Shown: positions 5,511-22,572 of the stretch, piece after piece | Layout: every line of letters starts with the position of its first letter | Position numbering within the stretch: the stretch's first letter is position 1 | Assembly: GCA_003697015.1 (NCBI GenBank) | Contig: RFGL01000017.1 | Span: forward strand, 1-49,949 | Length of the DNA: 49,949 nucleotides | Source: Acidobacteriota bacterium | GTDB lineage: Bacteria; Acidobacteriota; Thermoanaerobaculia; Multivoradales; J023 | Direction: 5' to 3' | Position numbers and translations under genes: made by a program | The notes under the pieces: generated by a model | Told to the model about the DNA's origin: nothing | Database searches by the model: none | Seen by the model: the letters and a program-made list of their open reading frames with translations, nothing else

Positions 5511-8500
5511 TCAGGAGTGAATCAGCCCGAGCTGACGCACCATGTAGGAGAGCGCCTGGCGGCTGAGCCCGAGCTGACGCGCCGCCGCCGCGCGATTGCC
5601 GCCGGTCGAACGCAAAGCGCGGTCGATCAGCTGCCGCCGGAATGCTTCGAGTTGAGCATGATACGTAGCTTCGGAACCGGCGGCCGATCCGGCATGCGGC
5701 AGATCGAGGTGCTCGGGGGTGATCTCACCCTCGCCGGCGAGAGCGGCGGCGACCTCCAATACGTTCTTCAGCTCGCGCACGTTGCCCGGCCAGGGGTGGG
5801 ATGAAAGCTGCTCCCGAGCGGCGCGGGAAAGGCGCAGGCGAGACCCGGCGACGCGTTCCACGAAGTGATCGGCGAGCAGCAGGACGTCGCCGTCGCGGTC
5901 GCGCAGAGGCGGCAATCGAACCATCGCCACCTTGAGACGAAAGTAGAGATCCTGGCGGAACGTACCCTCCGCCACCATGCGCTCCAGATCGCGGTGGGTG
6001 GCGGTCACCACCCGCACGTCGACGCCGCGCGGATGGCTCTCGCCGAGACGGCGGATCTCCCCCTCCTGCAGAACCCGCAGCAGCATGCCCTGCACCGGCG
6101 GCGGCAGATCGCCGATTTCATCGAGAAAAACCGTACCGCCGCGCGCCGCCTCAAAGACGCCGGGTCGATCGCGGTCGGCGCCGGTGAAGGCGCCGCGGAC
6201 GTGGCCGAAGAGATCGGAGGTGATCAGCGACTCGGAAAGGGCGGCACAGTTGACCGCCAGGAACGGTCCGCCGGCGCGGGCGCTCGAACGGTGGACGTAC
6301 CGCGCCGCCAGCTCCTTGCCGGTGCCGCTCTCGCCGAGAATCAGCAGCGGCAACTCGGCTTTCGCCAGCTTGCCCAGACGTTCGACGGCGGTACGCAGGG
6401 CGGCGCTGGCGCCGATCATGCCGCCGGTCGCCGGCGGCGGAGGGAGGCGGCCGGGAGCGGCCGGCAGATCGCGCCGGATGAGGGCGAAGAGCGCCCGCAG
6501 GCGGCTGTCGACGGCGGCGGCCGACAGCACCAGGCGACCGCCGCCGTCGTCCGCCGTCAGGGTCTCCTCGCCGCCCGGGCCGGCGACCAGCACCCGGCGG
6601 CGGCCGGCGTCGTCCTCGCGCACCAGGCGGACGTCGTCGTACCCCGCTCCGGCGAGGAGGGCCGCCCAGGCGCCGCCGCTGGCCGCCGTCCGCCGTTGCA
6701 GATACCGCTCCACGGCGCGCCAGGCGCTCAAGGAGCGCCCCTCCAGGCGCTCGGCCATGGGCTCGGCCCCGCAGCGGCGCAGGGTGTCGGCGGCCTGCCG
6801 GACCCGCAGCGACGGCACCATGCCGGGCTGCACCAGCTCGCAGTCGAAGATCAGGCGGGCGGCGCGGTAGGGCGCCAGGCTGGAGAGCTCGTCCCAGATC
6901 GCGGCGGAGGGCGAGCGGCCGGCGGCAAGCGAGCGCCACAGGGGAGCCCAGGGCGTGCCGTGAGCCAGCTCCGACGCCTGCTGGCGGCGGCCGGCGAGGG
7001 CGAGCAGGGCCGGCCCTTCCTCCGGCTCGAGCTCGGCCAGCGCCGCGGGGATGCCGTCCCCCAGCGCGGCGGACGCGGCGTCGGCCTGACCCTGCCAGCC
7101 GCGAGCCCGCGCTTCGAGCACCCGCACCAGCTCGAGGTCGCCGGCGGCAGGTCGCCGGGCGACCAGCTCCCGTGCCTCGACGCAGCGCGCCAGGGCCGCC
7201 GCCGTGCGTCCCTGAGCGAGCTCGTAGCGAGCCCACAGCTCGAGGTCTGCGAGCAGGCCGCGCACGTTGTCGGCACGGCGGTTCTCCCGCATCGAGACCT
7301 CGAGGATCGATCCCACGCCGGCGAGCCGGCCGCGGCGCAATCGCACTTCCGCCAGGTTGGGCAGTACCAGGGTCGTGGCGCTGGTGCCGTCGCATTCCTG
7401 CAGCCGTCGCAGCGCGTGGCGGCAGGCCCGCTCGGCGCCGGCCAGATCGTCGATCAGCACCCGCCCCAACGCCAGCTCGTTCCACAGCCGGCCGACCCGC
7501 TCCCGCGGCAGCCGGCGGCGCGCCTGGCGCAGGGCGGTGGCGACGTGGGTCACCACGCCGTCGCCGTCGCGGGCGAGGTGGCTGCGCAGGCCGCGGGCGT
7601 GGTGCCAGCGCCAGGCCAGGTCGGGGTCGTCGCGGGCGACGGCGGCGGCTTGCAGATGGCGATCCATGGCGCCGGCGTCGCCCTCGTCCCAGGCGGCGAG
7701 CGCCGCCAGCAGCCGTGCTCGCAGCTGCCAGCGGCCGCGGCCGGCGGCGAGGGCCCGCGCCACCCAGTCGCGCACGGCGTCGGGCCGGCCCTGGTTGGCC
7801 AGCAGCTTGACCGCCAGCTCGGCGGCCTCGACCGTGGCCGGCCCGGAGAGGGCGGTCGCCGCCAGCCGATCGAGGGTGGCACGGTCGGCCCGCAGCTCGC
7901 CGAGCTTCTCCTGACAGCGGGCGCGCAACAACCGCGCGGCGACGCTGCGCGCCCCTTGCAGGACGCTGCGCGCCCGCTCGTAGCGGCCGAGTGCGTAGAG
8001 CGCTTCGGCGAAGGCCAGGACCTGCGGCGCGGCGGTGGGCGGACGTCGTTCCCAGACGATGACCGCCTGGGCCGGGCGTCCGTCCGCGACCAGCCGCAGG
8101 GGATCTCCCAGGCCGCGGCGCCACCCCGACCACAGATCCTGCGCCCGCGGCCCGGCCAGCAGGCGCTCGAGGGTGAGGCGATCCCGCGCCCGAGCCAGGA
8201 ACCGCCGGCGGCAGGGCCCGGGTCCCGCGACCCGCAGCCGGCGCCGGCGGCCCTCCCGGTGAACCGCGGCCAGGGCGCGGCGCGCAACGGCGAACGGCGG
8301 CTGCCACAAGAACGGTGCCAGATCGAGGATCTGGGCTACCGCCCGGTCGCCGGCGAGGGGCGTCAAGGACGGGCGCCAGCGCTCGAGCAGGCGGCGGGCG
8401 GCACGGCGCGCCATGCCGCGGCCGGCGACCTCGGGACCGCGGAAGAGGATTTCCACCAGGGCCACCAACCACGCTTGATTGAAGCCATCCGGCCGGCCGC

Positions 8501-8774
8501 GACGCAGACCGCCGGCGATCAGACGGCCGTCCGCCGCCAGACGTGCGGCGCGCCAGCCGCCGGCCAGCACCAGGCCGCCGTAGTCGAGATGGGCGAGGAG
8601 CGCCGCCCCTTGCAATACCACCGCCAGCCGTTGCTGATCGGTGAGGACGGCGCGTTCGAGGGGCTCGCCGTCGTGCGGCGGATCGAGGGCCTGGTGATCG
8701 AGAAGCGCCGCCGCCGGGGGCGACTGGGCCGCGCCGGGGCGCGGTGCGGGGGAGCGCTCGTAAGCCGACTTCAT
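5511..8774 (-). CDS. Sigma-54-dependent activator with large TPR-like sensor region
   Basis: A 1087-residue protein. The C-terminal third is a bacterial enhancer-binding protein: an AAA+ domain (about 790-1020) with Walker A GESGTGKE near 812, the sigma-54 contact loop GAFTGA near 860, and a Fis-type HTH (about 1045-1085). The first 780 residues are Ala/Leu/Arg-rich helical repeats resembling TPRs, without a receiver, GAF or PAS domain that I can recognise. It should activate RpoN promoters in response to a ligand or partner bound by the repeats. The ATG overlaps the aroA stop as ATGA, so the two are translationally coupled. Confidence 0.9.
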
Positions 8775-10063
8775 CCGCCGAGCAGGCGTTCCAGATCGCG
8801 CCAGAACGCCGGGTACGACTTGGCGACCACCTGCGGCGCCCGGATCACCACGCCGGGCCGGCGCAGGCCGACCAGGGCCAGGGCCATGGCGATGCGGTGA
8901 TCGCCGTAGGTCTCGACCTCGACCGGCTCGCTGGGGGGAGGCGCCTCAGCCCACGTCCCCGGCACCACCAGGCCGTCGGCACGCTCCTCCACCGGCACCC
9001 CCAGCCGGCCGAGCTCGCGCGCCATGGCGGCGAGCCGGTCGCATTCCTTGATCCGCAGGTGGGCGACGTTTCGGATCACCGTCGTGCCGCGGGCGAAGGG
9101 CGCGACCGCCGCCAGGGTAGGCACCTGGTCGGGGACGTCGCTCAAGTCGGCGTCGAGCGCCGCCAGCGGGCCGCCTTCGACCACCAGCTCGGCACCGCGC
9201 CAGGCGACCCGCGCCCCCATCTCCGCCAGCAGATCGAGGAAGCGGCGGTCGCCCTGGGCCGAATCTCTCCGCAGCCCTTCGAGCACCACCGGGCCGCCGG
9301 TCAAGGCGGCGGCGGCGGCGGGGTAGGCGGCGGCGGAGTAGTCGCTCTCGACCGTCACCTCGCCGGCGGCGAGGGGCGACGGCTCGACCCGCCAGCGACG
9401 GCTGCCGCCGGGAGCGTCGGGGAGCGCCTCGAGGCGCCCGCCGAAGGCGGCGATGGCCTCGAACGTCAGATCGACGTACGGCGTCGAGGTCAGGCGCTCG
9501 ACCGTGACCTCGACCGGCTCGCGGGCGGCGAGGGCGGCGATCAGCAGGGCGGAGAGGTACTGGCTCGACTCGCCGGCATCGAGGGTCGTGCGACCGCCGC
9601 GCAGGCTGCCGCCGGTGATCTCGAGGGGGGCGTAGCCCTCGCGCTCCAGGCAGCGGATCTCGGCGCCCAGGGGCCGCAAGGCGGCGATCAGCGGGCCGAC
9701 GGGACGCTCGCGCAGGCGGGGGACGCCGTCGAGGCGCCAGCGGCCGGGGACGGTGGTCAAGGCAGCGGTCAGGAAGCGGAACATGGTGCCGCCGTTGCCA
9801 CAGAAGACGTCACCGCCGGCCGGCGGCGGACCGGGGGTGAGTCTGAGGGCTTCACCCCGTCGCTCGATGGCGAAACCGCAACGCGCGAGGGCGTCGAGGA
9901 ACAGCCGCGGGTCTTCCGAGGTCAGCGGGCGGTGGATGGTCAGGGGCAGGCGCCCGACCAGCGCCAGGCCGAAATAGCGCTGGGCGACGCTCTTCGACGG
10001 CGGCACGGCGCAGCGCCCGCGAGCCCGGCGACCGGCGGCGACGGCATAGGTCTCAGGCCCCAT
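8771..10063 (-). CDS. aroA: 3-phosphoshikimate 1-carboxyvinyltransferase (EPSP synthase)
   Basis: A 430-residue enzyme that joins phosphoenolpyruvate to shikimate 3-phosphate in the aromatic amino acid pathway. It has the N-terminal PPSKS motif (residues 21-25), the [10 protein letters not shown] region (class GNAGTxxR) and a C-terminal [10 protein letters not shown] segment with the catalytic acid/basic residues. The ATG at 10063 places SKS at residue 23, matching E. coli AroA. An ATG at 10099 has a better GGAGG nine bases upstream and would add 12 Arg-rich residues. The frame stays open to 10270, but that part has no family similarity. It is followed by a coupled sigma-54 activator and preceded by lpxH. 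Confidence 0.95.
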
Positions 10064-15705: not shown

Positions 15706-15736
15706 GCGCGCGCCCCACCGGTCGAGGACCTTGAGC

Positions 15737-16222
15737 ATGATCTCGGAAGAGATCGTCGAGCAGTGCTGGCGCGAGGCGGCGACCTTGCCGCCGCGGCGGG
15801 CGCGCAACGAGATGACACGCATCGCCCGGCGCCAACCCCACCTCCTGACCTTCGTCACGCTGACCACCCAGGAGCTCTCCCGCGACGCCAACGAGCTGGC
15901 GGTCTACCTTTTCTTCGTCGTCTACCGCATGTTCGAGAAGGCCGCCACCGGCACCATCCAGCGCGTCGCCAGCGACCGCATCATCGAACGCTTCGAGGAG
16001 AACGAAGCGGCCGTCCAACAGCTCGAAGGCGCCCACGACCGCTTCTTCCAGCGCGCCGCCCAGCTGCAGGCCGCCAGTCAGCCGTGGGTGGTCCAGTACA
16101 TCGTCGACGCCCTGCTCGAGCCCGACGAGGAGAATCCCGTCGAGCTCGACGCCTTCGAGGTCGGCATCCTCTATCTGATCCTGAAAACCGTCGTCGACGT
16201 CCTCGACGAATCGAGCGCCTAA
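15737..16222 (+). CDS. Unknown all-helical protein
   Basis: A 161-residue soluble protein that I do not recognise. It has a basic N-terminal third (PRRARNEMTRIARRQ), a long hydrophobic/aromatic helix around residues 50-67 (ANELAVYLFFVVYRMFEKA), a charged helix at 80-110 and an acidic C-terminus (EPDEENP, then LYLILKTVVDVLDESSA). No signal peptide or catalytic motif is evident. It starts 31 bases after glyQS, so it may be cotranscribed. GAGG precedes the ATG by nine bases. Its TAA overlaps the TAG of the convergent SpeD-like gene (CTAA), leaving no room for a terminator between them. Confidence 0.8.
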   Translation: MISEEIVEQCWREAATLPPRRARNEMTRIARRQPHLLTFVTLTTQELSRDANELAVYLFFVVYRMFEKAATGTIQRVASDRIIERFEENEAAVQQLEGAHDRFFQRAAQLQAASQPWVVQYIVDALLEPDEENPVELDAFEVGILYLILKTVVDVLDESSA

Positions 16223-16674
16223 CGCACCGCCGTCACCCGCGCCGGCTGCTCGGGCGGTTGGTTCGACAGGGGCTTGACGCCGCGGCCGCGGTAGATCATC
16301 TGCCGCTCGACGTGCTCCGGCTGGAACCACTCGCGCACGAATTCCTCCACCTTGTCCGGGTCGAAGGGTTTGCACGAGTAGACGTCGATGCTGATGAAGT
16401 GGTTCTTGGCCGAGGTATGGATCTGGATGGCGCTTTCGATGATCGGCACCCAACCGCTGTACCCCGGCCGGCCGGGAAACGCCTTTTCGCAGGTCTTGAA
16501 GATGTAGGGCTGAGTCTGCTTGGTCATGCCCAAGAAGTCGCAGATCTTGTCCAGGAACTCGTATCCCTTGTCGAGATCGCAGCAGCTGTCGAAATCACAG
16601 CCGAAACAATCGACAAGCAGACAGTGCCCCCAGGCCACCCCGAACTCCCCTTGGCTCAACGCGCCATCCGTCAT
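16219..16674 (-). CDS. SpeD-like pyruvoyl-dependent decarboxylase, altered substrate site
   Basis: A 151-residue member of the bacterial S-adenosylmethionine decarboxylase (AdoMet_dc) family. The self-processing residues are all present at family spacing: S81 (IIESAIQ, pyruvoyl precursor), H86 (IHT) and C101 (VYSC), matching Ser63, His68 and Cys83 of the Thermotoga enzyme. The usual IHTWPE is replaced by IHTSAKN, so the Trp and Glu associated with AdoMet binding are missing, and Ala82 replaces the usual His after the processed Ser. The protein has eight cysteines, five of them within residues 18-32. GGAGG lies seven bases before the ATG, inside the end of the cupin/MetRS gene, whose stop is three bases upstream: tightly coupled. 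I infer decarboxylation of ornithine, lysine, arginine or a derived N-N product rather than AdoMet. Confidence 0.85.
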   Translation of the reverse strand: MTDGALSQGEFGVAWGHCLLVDCFGCDFDSCCDLDKGYEFLDKICDFLGMTKQTQPYIFKTCEKAFPGRPGYSGWVPIIESAIQIHTSAKNHFISIDVYSCKPFDPDKVEEFVREWFQPEHVERQMIYRGRGVKPLSNQPPEQPARVTAVR

Positions 16675-16677
16675 GGT

Positions 16678-18840
16678 TCACCTCCGGATGGGGATCGATC
16701 CCCCGGTAGCCGAATCGTTGATCACTCCCGCCCCTTCCCCCGGTGCTTGTAGACGATCCTTCCCCTGAGCTAGAACGGCGTCCAATCGACCGCGGACGCC
16801 GGGAATGTAGACGTCTCTCCCCAGTTCGCCGATCCGTTGCCCGGCCTCGACCCAGGCCGGCACGTCCTCCCAGGTACCGCGTTCCACCGACCCGGAGCAG
16901 CCGAGGTCGCGCCACAGGCGCCCGGCCAGCTCGGGCATGATCGGAGCCGCGAGGATGGCCAGGACCTTGACCGCCAGAAGCTCCAGCGCGACGGCGGTAC
17001 GCCGCTCCTGCGAGCGTTCCGGGACGCCCCGCCAATGGTCTTCGCCCTTGCCGAAGCGCCGCGCGCTGCGCACCAGCTCGCACAGCAGCCGCGCCGCCCG
17101 CTGGGGCGAGAAGGTGGCGGGGGCATAGGCCTCCGCCGCCTCCGCGACGAACCGCTCGAGGCGGCGGTAGAAGTAGCGCTGCTCGTCGGTCCAGTCGCCG
17201 GTGGCCGGCACCGTCGCGTCGAATTCGTCGCGCACCTTCCGCCCCAGGTCGGCCAGCCAGGCCTGAAGGTCCCGGCGCAGCTCGCGTTCGACCGTCTCCT
17301 CGAAGTCGGCGACGGTGAAGTTGGTCTCCTCGCGCTCGGGGCAGCTGTAGGCGAGGAAGAACCGCATCACGTCGCGCGGCACCGCCTCCGCCATGGTGCG
17401 GCCGAGGATGCGGTGGTTGCGGCTGGTCGAGAACTTCTCGCCGTCGAGGCGATAGAACTCGTTGGTGACGAAGGCGGTGGGCAGCCGCAGCTCGCGGTCG
17501 TAGGCGAGGTAGAGGGCGGGCAGGAGGATGGCGTAATAGAAGCTGTTGTCGAAGCCGAAGAACTGCACGATCTCGGCCTCGGGCGAGCGCCAGAAGGACT
17601 CGTAGCTGCCCTCCGTGCCGTCGCCGCTGCTCAGGTGCTGGGCGTAGGCGAAGTAGCGCGCCGCCATCTCGAACCAGACGTAGAGGGTCTGCTCGGCGTA
17701 GGCCGGATCGGACGGCGCCTCGCCGTCGCCGCCGGCCATCGGCACCGGGATGCCCCAGCTGGAGACGTGGGAGATCGCAACGTCCGGCAGGCCGTCGGCG
17801 ATGGCGCGCTCGCAGAACGCCCGCAGGTGGGCGTTCATCGTCACCGAGCGGTGGTAGCGGCGCAGCTCCTCGGCGTAGTGGCTCAGCGGGAAGATCAGCC
17901 GGGTGAACGGCCGGCTGCCGGCGGGGGTACCGCAGGCGGTGCACCGCGGCTCCTTGAGATCGATGCAGTCGTTGATCCGGCCGCAGTCTTCGCAGGTATT
18001 GCCGGTCACCGCAGCGCCGCAATGGGGGCAGCCGCCGGCGACGTCGGCCTCGTGCAGATAGCGCCCGCAGGGCTCGCAGTACGGCGCCGGCGCCCGGCGT
18101 TCTTCGAGCTTGCCGCGGCGGTAGAGGCGGTGGAAGAAGTCGAGCACCAGGGGCTTGAAGTAGGGCGACGTGCGCGGGTTCATGAAGACGTCCATCGCCA
18201 CCCCGGCGGCGGCCAGGGTGTCGCGGATCTGGGCGCTGAAGAAGTCGGCCGCCTCGTGGCCGCTCATCCCCAGGCTCTGGCCCATGCGCTCGACGTACAT
18301 GCAGTGATCGTCGGTGCCGCAGGCGTAGTAGCTCTCGCCGCCGCGCAGCCGCAAGTAGCGGGCGTAGACGTCCGCCGACAGGTAGGGCCCGGCGAGGTGG
18401 CCGAGGTGCAGGTCGCCGTTGGGAGTCGGCGGCGCGGCGGTGACCATCACCCGGCGACGCGGCGCCGGGGCGGGCGGCTTGTCGTCTTCCTGCGACGGCC
18501 ACAGCTCGCGGTCCTCCCACCAGACGGTGAGGAACATCAGGTCCTCGTCGGCGGAGGTGTTGGTCAGGGTGTGCTCGTCGAAGGGCTGTTGGAAGATGAC
18601 GCTCCCCGGCCCCACCGGCGTGGTCTCGCCGCCGACGCTCATCTCCCCGTGGCCGCGGACGATGAAGAAGGTCTCGCCCTCCTGGTGCTTGTGGGACTTG
18701 GTCGAACGGCCGGGGCCGAGGATCGCCCAGGCGGCGCCGAAGGGCGGCGTCACCACCCCTTCCCACGGGTAGAGGACCTGCAGGTCGACGCCATAGGCCT
18801 GGAGAAACTTCTCGGCGTCGAGATGTTGAACGTGCACCAT
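16678..18840 (-). CDS. Cupin/methionyl-tRNA-synthetase-like fusion, probable hydrazine synthetase
   Basis: A 720-residue fusion. Residues 1-115 are a cupin with a complete metal site (H50, H52, E56, H90). From about 130 there is a class I synthetase core of MetRS type: HLGH at 145-148, two zinc knuckles (C255/C258 with C271/C274; C283/C286 with C300/C303), and KFSTS at 469-473 in place of KMSKS. A helical C-terminal part follows, with no EMAPII-type tRNA-binding domain. This architecture is that of Spb40 (s56-p1) and Tri28 (triacsin), where the MetRS-like part activates an amino acid and esterifies an N-hydroxylated diamino acid, and the cupin drives rearrangement to an N-N bond. It lies 13 bases after an N-hydroxylating monooxygenase gene and 3 bases before the SpeD-like gene. 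A housekeeping MetRS role is unlikely. Confidence 0.9.
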   Translation of the reverse strand: MVHVQHLDAEKFLQAYGVDLQVLYPWEGVVTPPFGAAWAILGPGRSTKSHKHQEGETFFIVRGHGEMSVGGETTPVGPGSVIFQQPFDEHTLTNTSADEDLMFLTVWWEDRELWPSQEDDKPPAPAPRRRVMVTAAPPTPNGDLHLGHLAGPYLSADVYARYLRLRGGESYYACGTDDHCMYVERMGQSLGMSGHEAADFFSAQIRDTLAAAGVAMDVFMNPRTSPYFKPLVLDFFHRLYRRGKLEERRAPAPYCEPCGRYLHEADVAGGCPHCGAAVTGNTCEDCGRINDCIDLKEPRCTACGTPAGSRPFTRLIFPLSHYAEELRRYHRSVTMNAHLRAFCERAIADGLPDVAISHVSSWGIPVPMAGGDGEAPSDPAYAEQTLYVWFEMAARYFAYAQHLSSGDGTEGSYESFWRSPEAEIVQFFGFDNSFYYAILLPALYLAYDRELRLPTAFVTNEFYRLDGEKFSTSRNHRILGRTMAEAVPRDVMRFFLAYSCPEREETNFTVADFEETVERELRRDLQAWLADLGRKVRDEFDATVPATGDWTDEQRYFYRRLERFVAEAAEAYAPATFSPQRAARLLCELVRSARRFGKGEDHWRGVPERSQERRTAVALELLAVKVLAILAAPIMPELAGRLWRDLGCSGSVERGTWEDVPAWVEAGQRIGELGRDVYIPGVRGRLDAVLAQGKDRLQAPGEGAGVINDSATGGSIPIRR

Positions 18841-18853
18841 CGCTTCGTCGCTC

Positions 18854-20221
18854 TCAGGTCATCGCCAGCGCCGGCTGCCGGCTGCGGGCCTTGAGCACCG
18901 ACCGCCGGATGTCCTCGGCCCGCACCGGCAGCAGGGAGAGCACGGTCTCGCTGATGCCGTGGGTGTCTTCGCAAAACCCTTGCAGATAGACCCGCGGTTT
19001 GAAGCCGGGCTTGCTGGCGATGCCGTAGTCGCGTTCAACCTTGAATCCGCCCCGATCGTCGAGCTCGAGATAGCCTTCGAGGTCGGCGAGCAGGGGGTGC
19101 TTCTTATGCCACTCGTAGCCGGTGCAAAGCACCGCGCCGTCCAGGCCCTCGATGCGCACCGCTTCCTCGCGCATGACGTCGCGGAACTCGGCCGCGGCGC
19201 CTTCCGGACCGTCCTCGATGCCGATCAGCTCGAGAAACGGCACCAGGCGCGCCCGCTCGTTGCGCCGCACCTTCATCTGGTACAGCTTCTTGTAGATGCG
19301 GTGGATGAGGGCGTGGTCGATGACGGCGTAGTTGACGTCTTTCAGATCGTCGAAGAACTTGCGCCGTTTGTCGGCCGCCAGGCTGTGGTAGTAGTCGACC
19401 CACTCGGGGAAGAAGATGCGGTTGGTGAAGTCGCTCTCGTCGACCGGCTTGTAGGCGAAGCGGCGGGTGGTGGCGGTGACGTCGGCGGCCGGATAGTGAT
19501 CGATCAGGTACTCGAAGATCTCGGCCGCGCTCTGCCCCGAGCCCACCACCAGGAAGCGGTAGGGCGCATGGCGATCGGGGTAGGCCTTGATGCGCTCGAG
19601 AAAGTCGTTCGAATGGAAGATGCGGCCGCCGGGCTCGAGGGAGATCCCCGGCGGCGTCGCCGGCGTGCCGCCGGTGGCGACGACCAGGTTGCGGGTCAGG
19701 TAGGACTCGCGCGCTCCGTCGCCGCCGGTGCGCGCCTCGACCCGCAGCAGGGCCGGCGAGGCGCCGGCATCGGCCAGCGGCCGCCCGTCGGCGTCGGCCG
19801 GCATAATGCGCTCCACCCAGCGGCCGTAGCGCACCCGCTCGGCGAGGATGCCCGCCGCCCAGCGGAGGTAGTCGTTGAATTCGATGCGCGTGGGGAAGAG
19901 GTCGCGCAGGTTGAGGAATTCGTACAGCCGATCGTTTTCTTTCAGGTAGTTGAGGAAGGTGAAGCGGCTGCGCGGATTGACCACGGTGATCAGGTCCTTG
20001 ATCACCGTGATCTGAAGCAGGGAGTCCTCGAGCAGCATGCTCGGATGCCAGACGAAGCTCGGCTTCCCTTCGAGGAAGAGCCGTTCGAGCCGGTCCTCTT
20101 CCTGCGCTTCCTCGAGTACCACGGCGAGGGCCAGATTGGCCGGGCCGAATCCCACCCCTACAAGGTCGTAGACCTTGGCGCCGTCAGAAGGCTGCGCAAC
20201 CCGCGAGCCCCGTTCCTGCAT
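18854..20221 (-). CDS. L-ornithine/L-lysine N-monooxygenase
   Basis: A 455-residue class B flavin N-hydroxylating monooxygenase of the IucD/PvdA/SidA family. It has the FAD motif GVGFGPANLAL (22-32), the substrate region IKDLITVVNPRSRFTFLNYL (74-93), EFNDYLRW (114-121), the NADPH motif VVGSGQSAAE (225-234), and the C-terminal HGISETVLSLLPVR typical of the family. The EFNDYLRW and DESDFTNRIF segments look more like ornithine N5- than lysine N6-enzymes, but either substrate is possible. Such enzymes usually serve hydroxamate siderophores, but no NRPS, acyltransferase or NIS synthetase is present. The adjacent cupin/MetRS fusion points to N-N bond formation instead. First gene of a three-gene operon. 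Confidence 0.93.
   Translation of the reverse strand: MQERGSRVAQPSDGAKVYDLVGVGFGPANLALAVVLEEAQEEDRLERLFLEGKPSFVWHPSMLLEDSLLQITVIKDLITVVNPRSRFTFLNYLKENDRLYEFLNLRDLFPTRIEFNDYLRWAAGILAERVRYGRWVERIMPADADGRPLADAGASPALLRVEARTGGDGARESYLTRNLVVATGGTPATPPGISLEPGGRIFHSNDFLERIKAYPDRHAPYRFLVVGSGQSAAEIFEYLIDHYPAADVTATTRRFAYKPVDESDFTNRIFFPEWVDYYHSLAADKRRKFFDDLKDVNYAVIDHALIHRIYKKLYQMKVRRNERARLVPFLELIGIEDGPEGAAAEFRDVMREEAVRIEGLDGAVLCTGYEWHKKHPLLADLEGYLELDDRGGFKVERDYGIASKPGFKPRVYLQGFCEDTHGISETVLSLLPVRAEDIRRSVLKARSRQPALAMT

Positions 20222-20634: not shown

Positions 20635-22572
<1,938 letters not shown>

Follow-up and report, generated by a model that had tools for sequence, protein, structure and literature searches.

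A putative hydrazine synthetase operon with a SpeD-like decarboxylase in one order of Acidobacteriota

The 49,949-nucleotide stretch of acidobacterial DNA analyzed here (contig RFGL01000017.1, C307 in our numbering, hereafter the window) belongs to a genome of 5.3 Mb in 500 contigs and carries three genes on its minus strand that form a real, conserved gene set. They encode a flavin-dependent ornithine/lysine N-monooxygenase (NMO; 18854..20221, 455 amino acids), a cupin/methionyl-tRNA synthetase (MetRS)-like hydrazine synthetase (HYS; 16678..18840, 720 amino acids) and a predicted SpeD-like pyruvoyl-type decarboxylase (SpeD; 16219..16674, 151 amino acids). The one-strand arrangement with gaps of 13 bases (18841-18853) and 3 bases (16675-16677), claimed in the original prediction from the sequence alone, was confirmed, and Pfam assignments agreed with it (PF13434 for NMO, E 2.8e-99; Cupin_2 and tRNA-synt_1g for HYS; AdoMet_dc, PF02675, for SpeD, E 4.9e-17). 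By residues and modeled structure, NMO and HYS are an N-N-forming pair of the Spb38/Spb40, Tri26/Tri28 and PyrM/PyrN kind, with predicted activity. We consider it fairly probable that the trio is the N-N core plus tailoring decarboxylase of a dispersed hydrazine pathway associated with nonribosomal peptide synthetases (NRPSs) in one order of Acidobacteriota, for which we infer the chemistry, the substrates and the position of the decarboxylation. The N-N core falls within the known hydrazine synthetase family; the SpeD partner sets the trio apart from the described systems, and no such gene set was described in the literature searched. In the course of evolution, a dedicated decarboxylase appears to have become associated with a single HYS sub-clade, and this in a phylum of little-known products.

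Sequence and model place HYS clearly within the hydrazine synthetase family. A single chain holds an N-terminal cupin domain (residues 1-110, 18511..18840, minus strand; Cupin_2 at residues 39-107, E 4.7e-13) followed by a MetRS-like domain (residues 129-660, 16861..18456, minus strand; tRNA-synt_1g at residues 132-525, E 2e-82). The predicted Zn-site residues H50, H52, E56 and H90 aligned with PyrN residues at identical numbering, and the KMSKS equivalent, K469-F-S-T-S, aligned with PyrN K458; the HIGH-type motif reads HLGH. Mutants of PyrN have been described for the metal-site residues H50, H52 and H90 and the essential Glu56, and PyrN also needs the ATP-site K458 (PMC8664883). The Zn-site residues and the KMSKS Lys were invariant across 20 aligned homologues, AzsN of the azaserine pathway included, and HYS shared 40-67% identity with its relatives over nearly the full length. 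An AlphaFold2 model (predicted local distance difference test score, pLDDT, 87; predicted template modeling score 0.79) gave as top Foldseek match the PyrN C-terminal domain with L-glutamyl-sulfamoyl-adenosine (9l8v, E 3.3e-48, target template modeling (TM) score 0.93-0.95). In a maximum-likelihood tree the genome's own MetRS, encoded by a separate gene on C326, and E. coli MetRS were placed outside the HYS family with a Shimodaira-Hasegawa-like approximate likelihood ratio test (SH-aLRT) value of 99. In the residue alignments E. coli MetRS served as a ruler, and the comparison among homologues is independent of it. A housekeeping MetRS as the identity of HYS was rejected on the tree, the catalytic cupin and the structure match. 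The catalytic residues, the best structural match to PyrN and the tree position away from MetRS thus agree with the original prediction that the first two genes form an N-N-forming pair. Its statement that this pair is known chiefly from Actinobacteria did not hold: a single genome collection yielded 516 matching stretches, and members are known in Bacillus, Pseudomonas, Ralstonia, Corallococcus, Mesorhizobium and Microcystis (PMC11705231, Table 2). Variants of the fusion were also observed. At L036 and L038 (G021, G027) two tandem N-terminal cupins precede the MetRS-like domain, with a Flavoprotein/DFP (CoaBC-like) gene beside them (PF02441 and PF04127; match checked in L038). L039 (G002 C54, ~7991-9754) encodes a divergent MetRS-like protein with no matching cupin; an NRPS is nearby, and a complete HYS (L037) lies ~30 kb away on that contig.

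Two types of HYS were distinguished at the position of window residue 395 (codon 17656..17658, minus strand). The R-type, found in ten genomes, carries Arg, and this Arg marks the SpeD-associated sub-clade; the G-type carries Gly, which was present in 73 of the aligned sequences and is shared with most other members of the family, including those of the azaserine producers L110 and L115. Outside the SpeD-associated sub-clade, Arg at 395 was seen among the sequences aligned here only in PyrN and the PyrN-like locus L093, around which no SpeD was found within 10 kb. In the window and nine relatives, Arg stands where Gly would mark the glycine-type (Spb/Tri/Azs) hydrazinoacetic acid pathway; residue 395 as a pathway marker is a criterion proposed in this analysis and not a published one. 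The likeness to PyrN suggests that R395 may read an acidic side chain, corresponding to the use of Glu or Asp.

Co-occurrence was assessed in 119 related genomes. HYS was present in 13 of these, SpeD in 10 and a DAO-family FAD oxidase (DAO) in 12. The genomes with SpeD were exactly those with R-type HYS (10 of 10: G000, G001, G006, G012, G013, G018, G019, G020, G025 and G031), and the three genomes with G-type HYS only (G002, G021, G027) had no SpeD. In each of the genera g3, g8 and g9, one species had both SpeD and HYS and another lacked the two, a pattern that speaks for their having been gained or lost together more than once. A distant glycyl-tRNA synthetase (GlyRS) is present in most of the order, and this enzyme was unsuitable as a species-tree marker. 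All 12 DAO genomes were among the 13 with HYS, the one left without DAO being G006, which is 86% complete. The trees of NMO, HYS and DAO each divided into R-type and G-type sets. The R-type NMOs grouped in a clade of their own (SH-aLRT 98), as did the G-type DAOs (99/98); the DAO tree did not include G012 and G027, whose captured fragments were too short. Among 80 loci fetched, none of the non-acidobacterial ones had SpeD within 10 kb of HYS. The combination of R395 and SpeD would provide a sequence rule for genome mining.

The third gene is of the SpeD type, as originally predicted, with its processing and catalytic residues intact. The predicted self-cleavage site is E80-S81 (16432..16437, minus strand), and the spacing of S81, H86 and C101 (+5, +20) is that of T. 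maritima S63, H68 and C83, the self-processing and catalytic residues of AdoMet decarboxylase (AdoMetDC) (PMC10407285). An AlphaFold2 model (pLDDT 78) matched T. maritima AdoMetDC (1tmi/1tlu) in Foldseek with target TM scores of 0.83-0.84, corresponding to the class-1b fold. This fold, together with the nearest Pfam and NCBIfam models, both of which are AdoMetDC, would fit an ordinary AdoMetDC for spermidine that sits in the operon by chance. However, the protein scored 41.7 bits against the nearest NCBIfam AdoMetDC model, below the cut-off of 75.65 bits. One Pro is completely conserved among bona fide AdoMetDCs (PMC10407285); assumed here, since only a figure marks its position, to be the Pro of HTWPE, it is absent from the window SpeD (HTSAKN) and from all ten members (HTSA). 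SpeD is the sole PF02675 gene of the window genome, and the two spermidine-synthase-like matches (PF01564) both lie inside open frames of 803-851 amino acids, leaving no ordinary-sized SpeE. In the SpeD tree the ten relatives formed one clade (support 100/99) with a long stem, apart from canonical Acidobacteriota SpeDs. Given the absent Pro, a genome devoid of an ordinary SpeE and the tree position, the SpeD-like protein is probably not an AdoMetDC; an ordinary spermidine-pathway enzyme, against which its strict tie to HYS also speaks, was rejected on these three grounds as very improbable.

Two phage SpeDs and the SpeDs of two acidobacteria with several copies fell on the same side of the tree as the clade of ten, away from the canonical Acidobacteriota SpeDs, although the long branches make this deeper grouping uncertain. 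In Microcystis phage MaAM05 (L183, MW495066) two adjacent SpeD genes are followed by speE; among phage proteins, one of these SpeDs is the nearest to the window SpeD, and it may be an ornithine decarboxylase of the SpeDC type. In the acidobacterial locus L187 (G389 C12) two SpeD-like domains are fused in one open frame, the first without the Glu-Ser cleavage site. The window SpeD is Cys-rich, with C23, C26, C31, C32, C45, C62 and C101 invariant in five aligned members. Residues 23-62 comprise CFGC-x4-CC plus C45 and C62; CFGC followed by Cys-Cys was present in nearly all members. The segment is absent from ordinary SpeDs and is possibly a metal site or structural.

The nearest described precedents of the SpeD-like protein appear to be the SpeD-derived ornithine and arginine decarboxylases SpeDC and SpeDA (PMC10407285), above all those for ornithine, which share the class-1b scaffold, the Ser, His and Cys residues, the loss of the AdoMetDC-specific Pro and a genome without an ordinary SpeE. 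SpeDC enzymes have four diagnostic residues, Gln, Thr, Phe and Tyr (PMC10407285), and Q84, T87, F93 and Y99 of the window motif match this order, the exact positions being given only in a figure. SpeDC and SpeDA lie in polyamine gene clusters, whereas the Cys-rich window SpeD accompanies hydrazine and NRPS genes and belongs to a separate, long-stemmed clade. A search for pyridoxal phosphate-type ornithine/arginine/lysine-family decarboxylases (PF02784) gave one gene in the window genome; LysA and ornithine or arginine decarboxylase were indistinguishable in it, and it was not used.

A SpeDC-like ornithine decarboxylase could also act first, in which case putrescine would be hydroxylated by NMO and coupled by HYS, and the hydrazine would carry the diamine throughout. 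Ornithine decarboxylases of SpeD origin occur widely and use free ornithine (PMC10407285), a phage copy that adjoins a second SpeD and SpeE is among the nearest SpeDs outside the clade, and N4-hydroxyputrescine is accepted by hydrazine synthetases (PMC11705231). The evidence from NMO, which is predicted to catalyze the first step, omega-N-hydroxylation, points the other way. Its best relatives in the PDB were MbtG (9nns) and PvdA (3s5w), and it was closer to these amino-acid hydroxylases than to the putrescine hydroxylase 7us3. It retains the residues aligned with PvdA K69, N254, N284 and S410, which we take to bind the alpha-amino acid end of ornithine; the PvdA ruler was a sequence derived largely from an alignment, and the comparison among homologues is independent of it. 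With K69, N254 and N284 in particular standing against putrescine as substrate, we regard decarboxylation as the opening step as unlikely, although it deserves consideration.

The gene order NMO-HYS-SpeD was found in the window and in two other species (L023, L024), and the trio is thus conserved among relatives. This recurrence and the 10-of-10 match between SpeD and R-type HYS speak against a chance arrangement. In all ten SpeD genomes SpeD adjoins NMO, HYS, DAO or NRPS genes. L134 reads NMO-SpeD-amidase-DAO, and at L133 SpeD lies beside DAO and NRPS. The order NRPS-SpeD-FG-GAP was present in L028, which also contains HYS and NMO, and in L131 and L132; L025 holds HYS, FG-GAP and SpeD genes together with the beginning of an NRPS-family frame; and L135, from the sister species G001, reads SpeD-MFS/M28-NRPS, MFS denoting the major facilitator superfamily. 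The FG-GAP/ASPIC-UnbV protein is a recurrent neighbor of SpeD, HYS and NRPS genes (L025, L028, L032, L131, L132 and, in the window genome itself, L151). Cytochrome P450 domains, in two matched stretches, were observed directly downstream of the R-type HYS at L026 (G013 C14, 1612-4521). The position of SpeD directly beside NRPS genes in L028, L131 and L132, and close to them in L135, would be expected if SpeD made a polyamine or another amine that is added by the NRPS independently of the hydrazine chemistry. However, SpeD tracks R-type HYS exactly, it follows HYS in the same gene order in three genomes, and the G-type HYS loci with NRPS neighbors (L030, L031, L034) have no SpeD adjoining. An amine supply of this kind is therefore improbable.

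Further genes of the putative pathway were located on other contigs of the window genome. A DAO of putative Spb39/Tri27 type (PF01266) lies on C255 beside topA, unlinked to the trio, and in G001 the same topA gene is separated from HYS by the DAO; the two arrangements argue that the two halves belong together. The C255 DAO showed no similarity to AzsM in L115 at phmmer E<1. The trio is accordingly not the whole pathway, this oxidase being a predicted fourth enzyme. NRPS genes were found on C61, C179, C250 and C312. C312 combines NRPS and FG-GAP genes as do L132 and L131, and C61 carries MFS, FtsX and NRPS genes, of which the MFS and NRPS genes resemble those of L135. By motif reading, the NRPS adenylation-domain codes were Ser-like in some modules. 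The claim that NRPS, polyketide synthase (PKS) and siderophore genes are missing nearby was correct as far as none were found in the scanned parts of the window, but NRPS genes are present elsewhere in the genome and, in relatives, beside orthologous SpeD or HYS genes. The compact operon and the lack of such genes in those parts of the window would speak for a small stand-alone or cofactor-like hydrazine as product of the trio, as originally proposed. With DAO and NRPS genes on other contigs of the same genome this proposal is unsupported; the NRPS neighbors of orthologous loci and a patchy distribution, as in specialized metabolism, also speak against it, and we consider it distinctly improbable.

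In the dispersed pathway that we favor, NMO would hydroxylate ornithine or lysine at the side-chain nitrogen. A second amino acid, perhaps Glu or Asp in view of R395, would then be adenylated by the MetRS-like domain of HYS, which would form an O-acyl-hydroxylamine ester that the Zn cupin would rearrange to an N-N-linked bis-amino acid. An FAD oxidase of the Spb39/Apy10 type, encoded on the other contig, would cut one C-N bond and yield a hydrazino building block. The SpeD-derived pyruvoyl decarboxylase would take the alpha-carboxylate off the ornithine- or lysine-like half, with the amino acid itself, the N-N adduct or the released omega-hydrazino amino acid as candidate substrates, and NRPS genes elsewhere would use the product. 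Known oxidases of this family cut such adducts on one side or the other: hydrazinoacetic acid is the product of Spb39, while with Apy10 a keto acid is released and the diamino acid retains the hydrazine (PMC11705231). Should the oxidase be Apy10-like and the second amino acid used by HYS acidic, this second amino acid would donate nitrogen and depart as a keto acid; what remains, an omega-hydrazino amino acid, would resemble ornithine or lysine and be a plausible substrate of a SpeD-derived decarboxylase. Alternatively, ornithine may be decarboxylated before hydroxylation, or the N-N adduct may be. Hydrazines trap pyruvoyl groups, and decarboxylation of an alpha-hydrazino acid seems for this reason less likely.

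More tentatively, we propose that a SpeD-derived decarboxylase was recruited to N-N biosynthesis and acts on an N-N-containing amino acid, meaning hydrazino-ornithine, hydrazino-lysine or its bis-amino-acid adduct, to supply aminoalkyl-hydrazine units to the NRPS, and that HYS, NMO, oxidase and decarboxylase co-diversified as one module. Three points weigh against the favored dispersed pathway. The naive hypergeometric value for the overlap of SpeD and R-type HYS, 9e-15, ignores shared ancestry. PyrN differs from HYS at other pocket positions, with Ala for W389 and Arg for Y436, so that the step from R395 to Glu use is unproven. Finally, the links of DAO and NRPS to the trio rest on neighborhood orthology, since trio, DAO and NRPS genes are spread over separate contigs of the window genome. 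Biocatalysis has an interest in the hydrazine synthetases, a young enzyme family, and according to a recent review a broader range of products may require decarboxylation steps (PMC11705231). If the pathway is as proposed, its three or four genes would form a compact cassette for making decarboxylated hydrazines and would be a case of AdoMetDC recruitment outside polyamine metabolism.

Several known systems resemble the trio. Spb38-39-40 (s56-p1), Tri26-27-28 (triacsin) and AzsL-M-N (azaserine) comprise the same kinds of N-hydroxylase, FAD oxidase and cupin/MetRS synthetase. The cupin/MetRS order and the catalytic residues are identical, and an oxidase of the same broad family is present in the window genome. 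Here, however, the oxidase is outside the operon and a SpeD-like decarboxylase inside it, with Arg for Gly at 395, and the window NMO is of the PvdA/MbtG kind, whereas those of the azaserine loci are of an actinobacterial kind. PyrM/PyrN of pyrazomycin, which use N6-hydroxylysine and L-Glu, provide the best solved structure and share the Zn-site residues and Arg at 395, but the partner of PyrN is the saccharopine-dehydrogenase-like PyrL. Apy9-10-11 of actinopyridazinone likewise combine NMO, HYS and FAD oxidase; their partner amino acid is Ala, and no decarboxylase is described for them in the review (PMC11705231).

In the surroundings of the trio, a sigma-70 scan found no promoter. A gene for 163 amino acids on the plus strand (15731-16222), without a Pfam or NCBIfam match, converges on the SpeD gene and overlaps its 3' end by 4 bases. 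Upstream of NMO lies an S9 peptidase gene (20635-22572, minus strand), whose translation start is ~2.3 kb upstream of the NMO start and whose end is ~410 bases before it. The other window genes with a Pfam name look like those of an ordinary chromosome: GlyRS, Lon, an EF-G-like protein, a PilB-type ATPase and the S9 peptidase.

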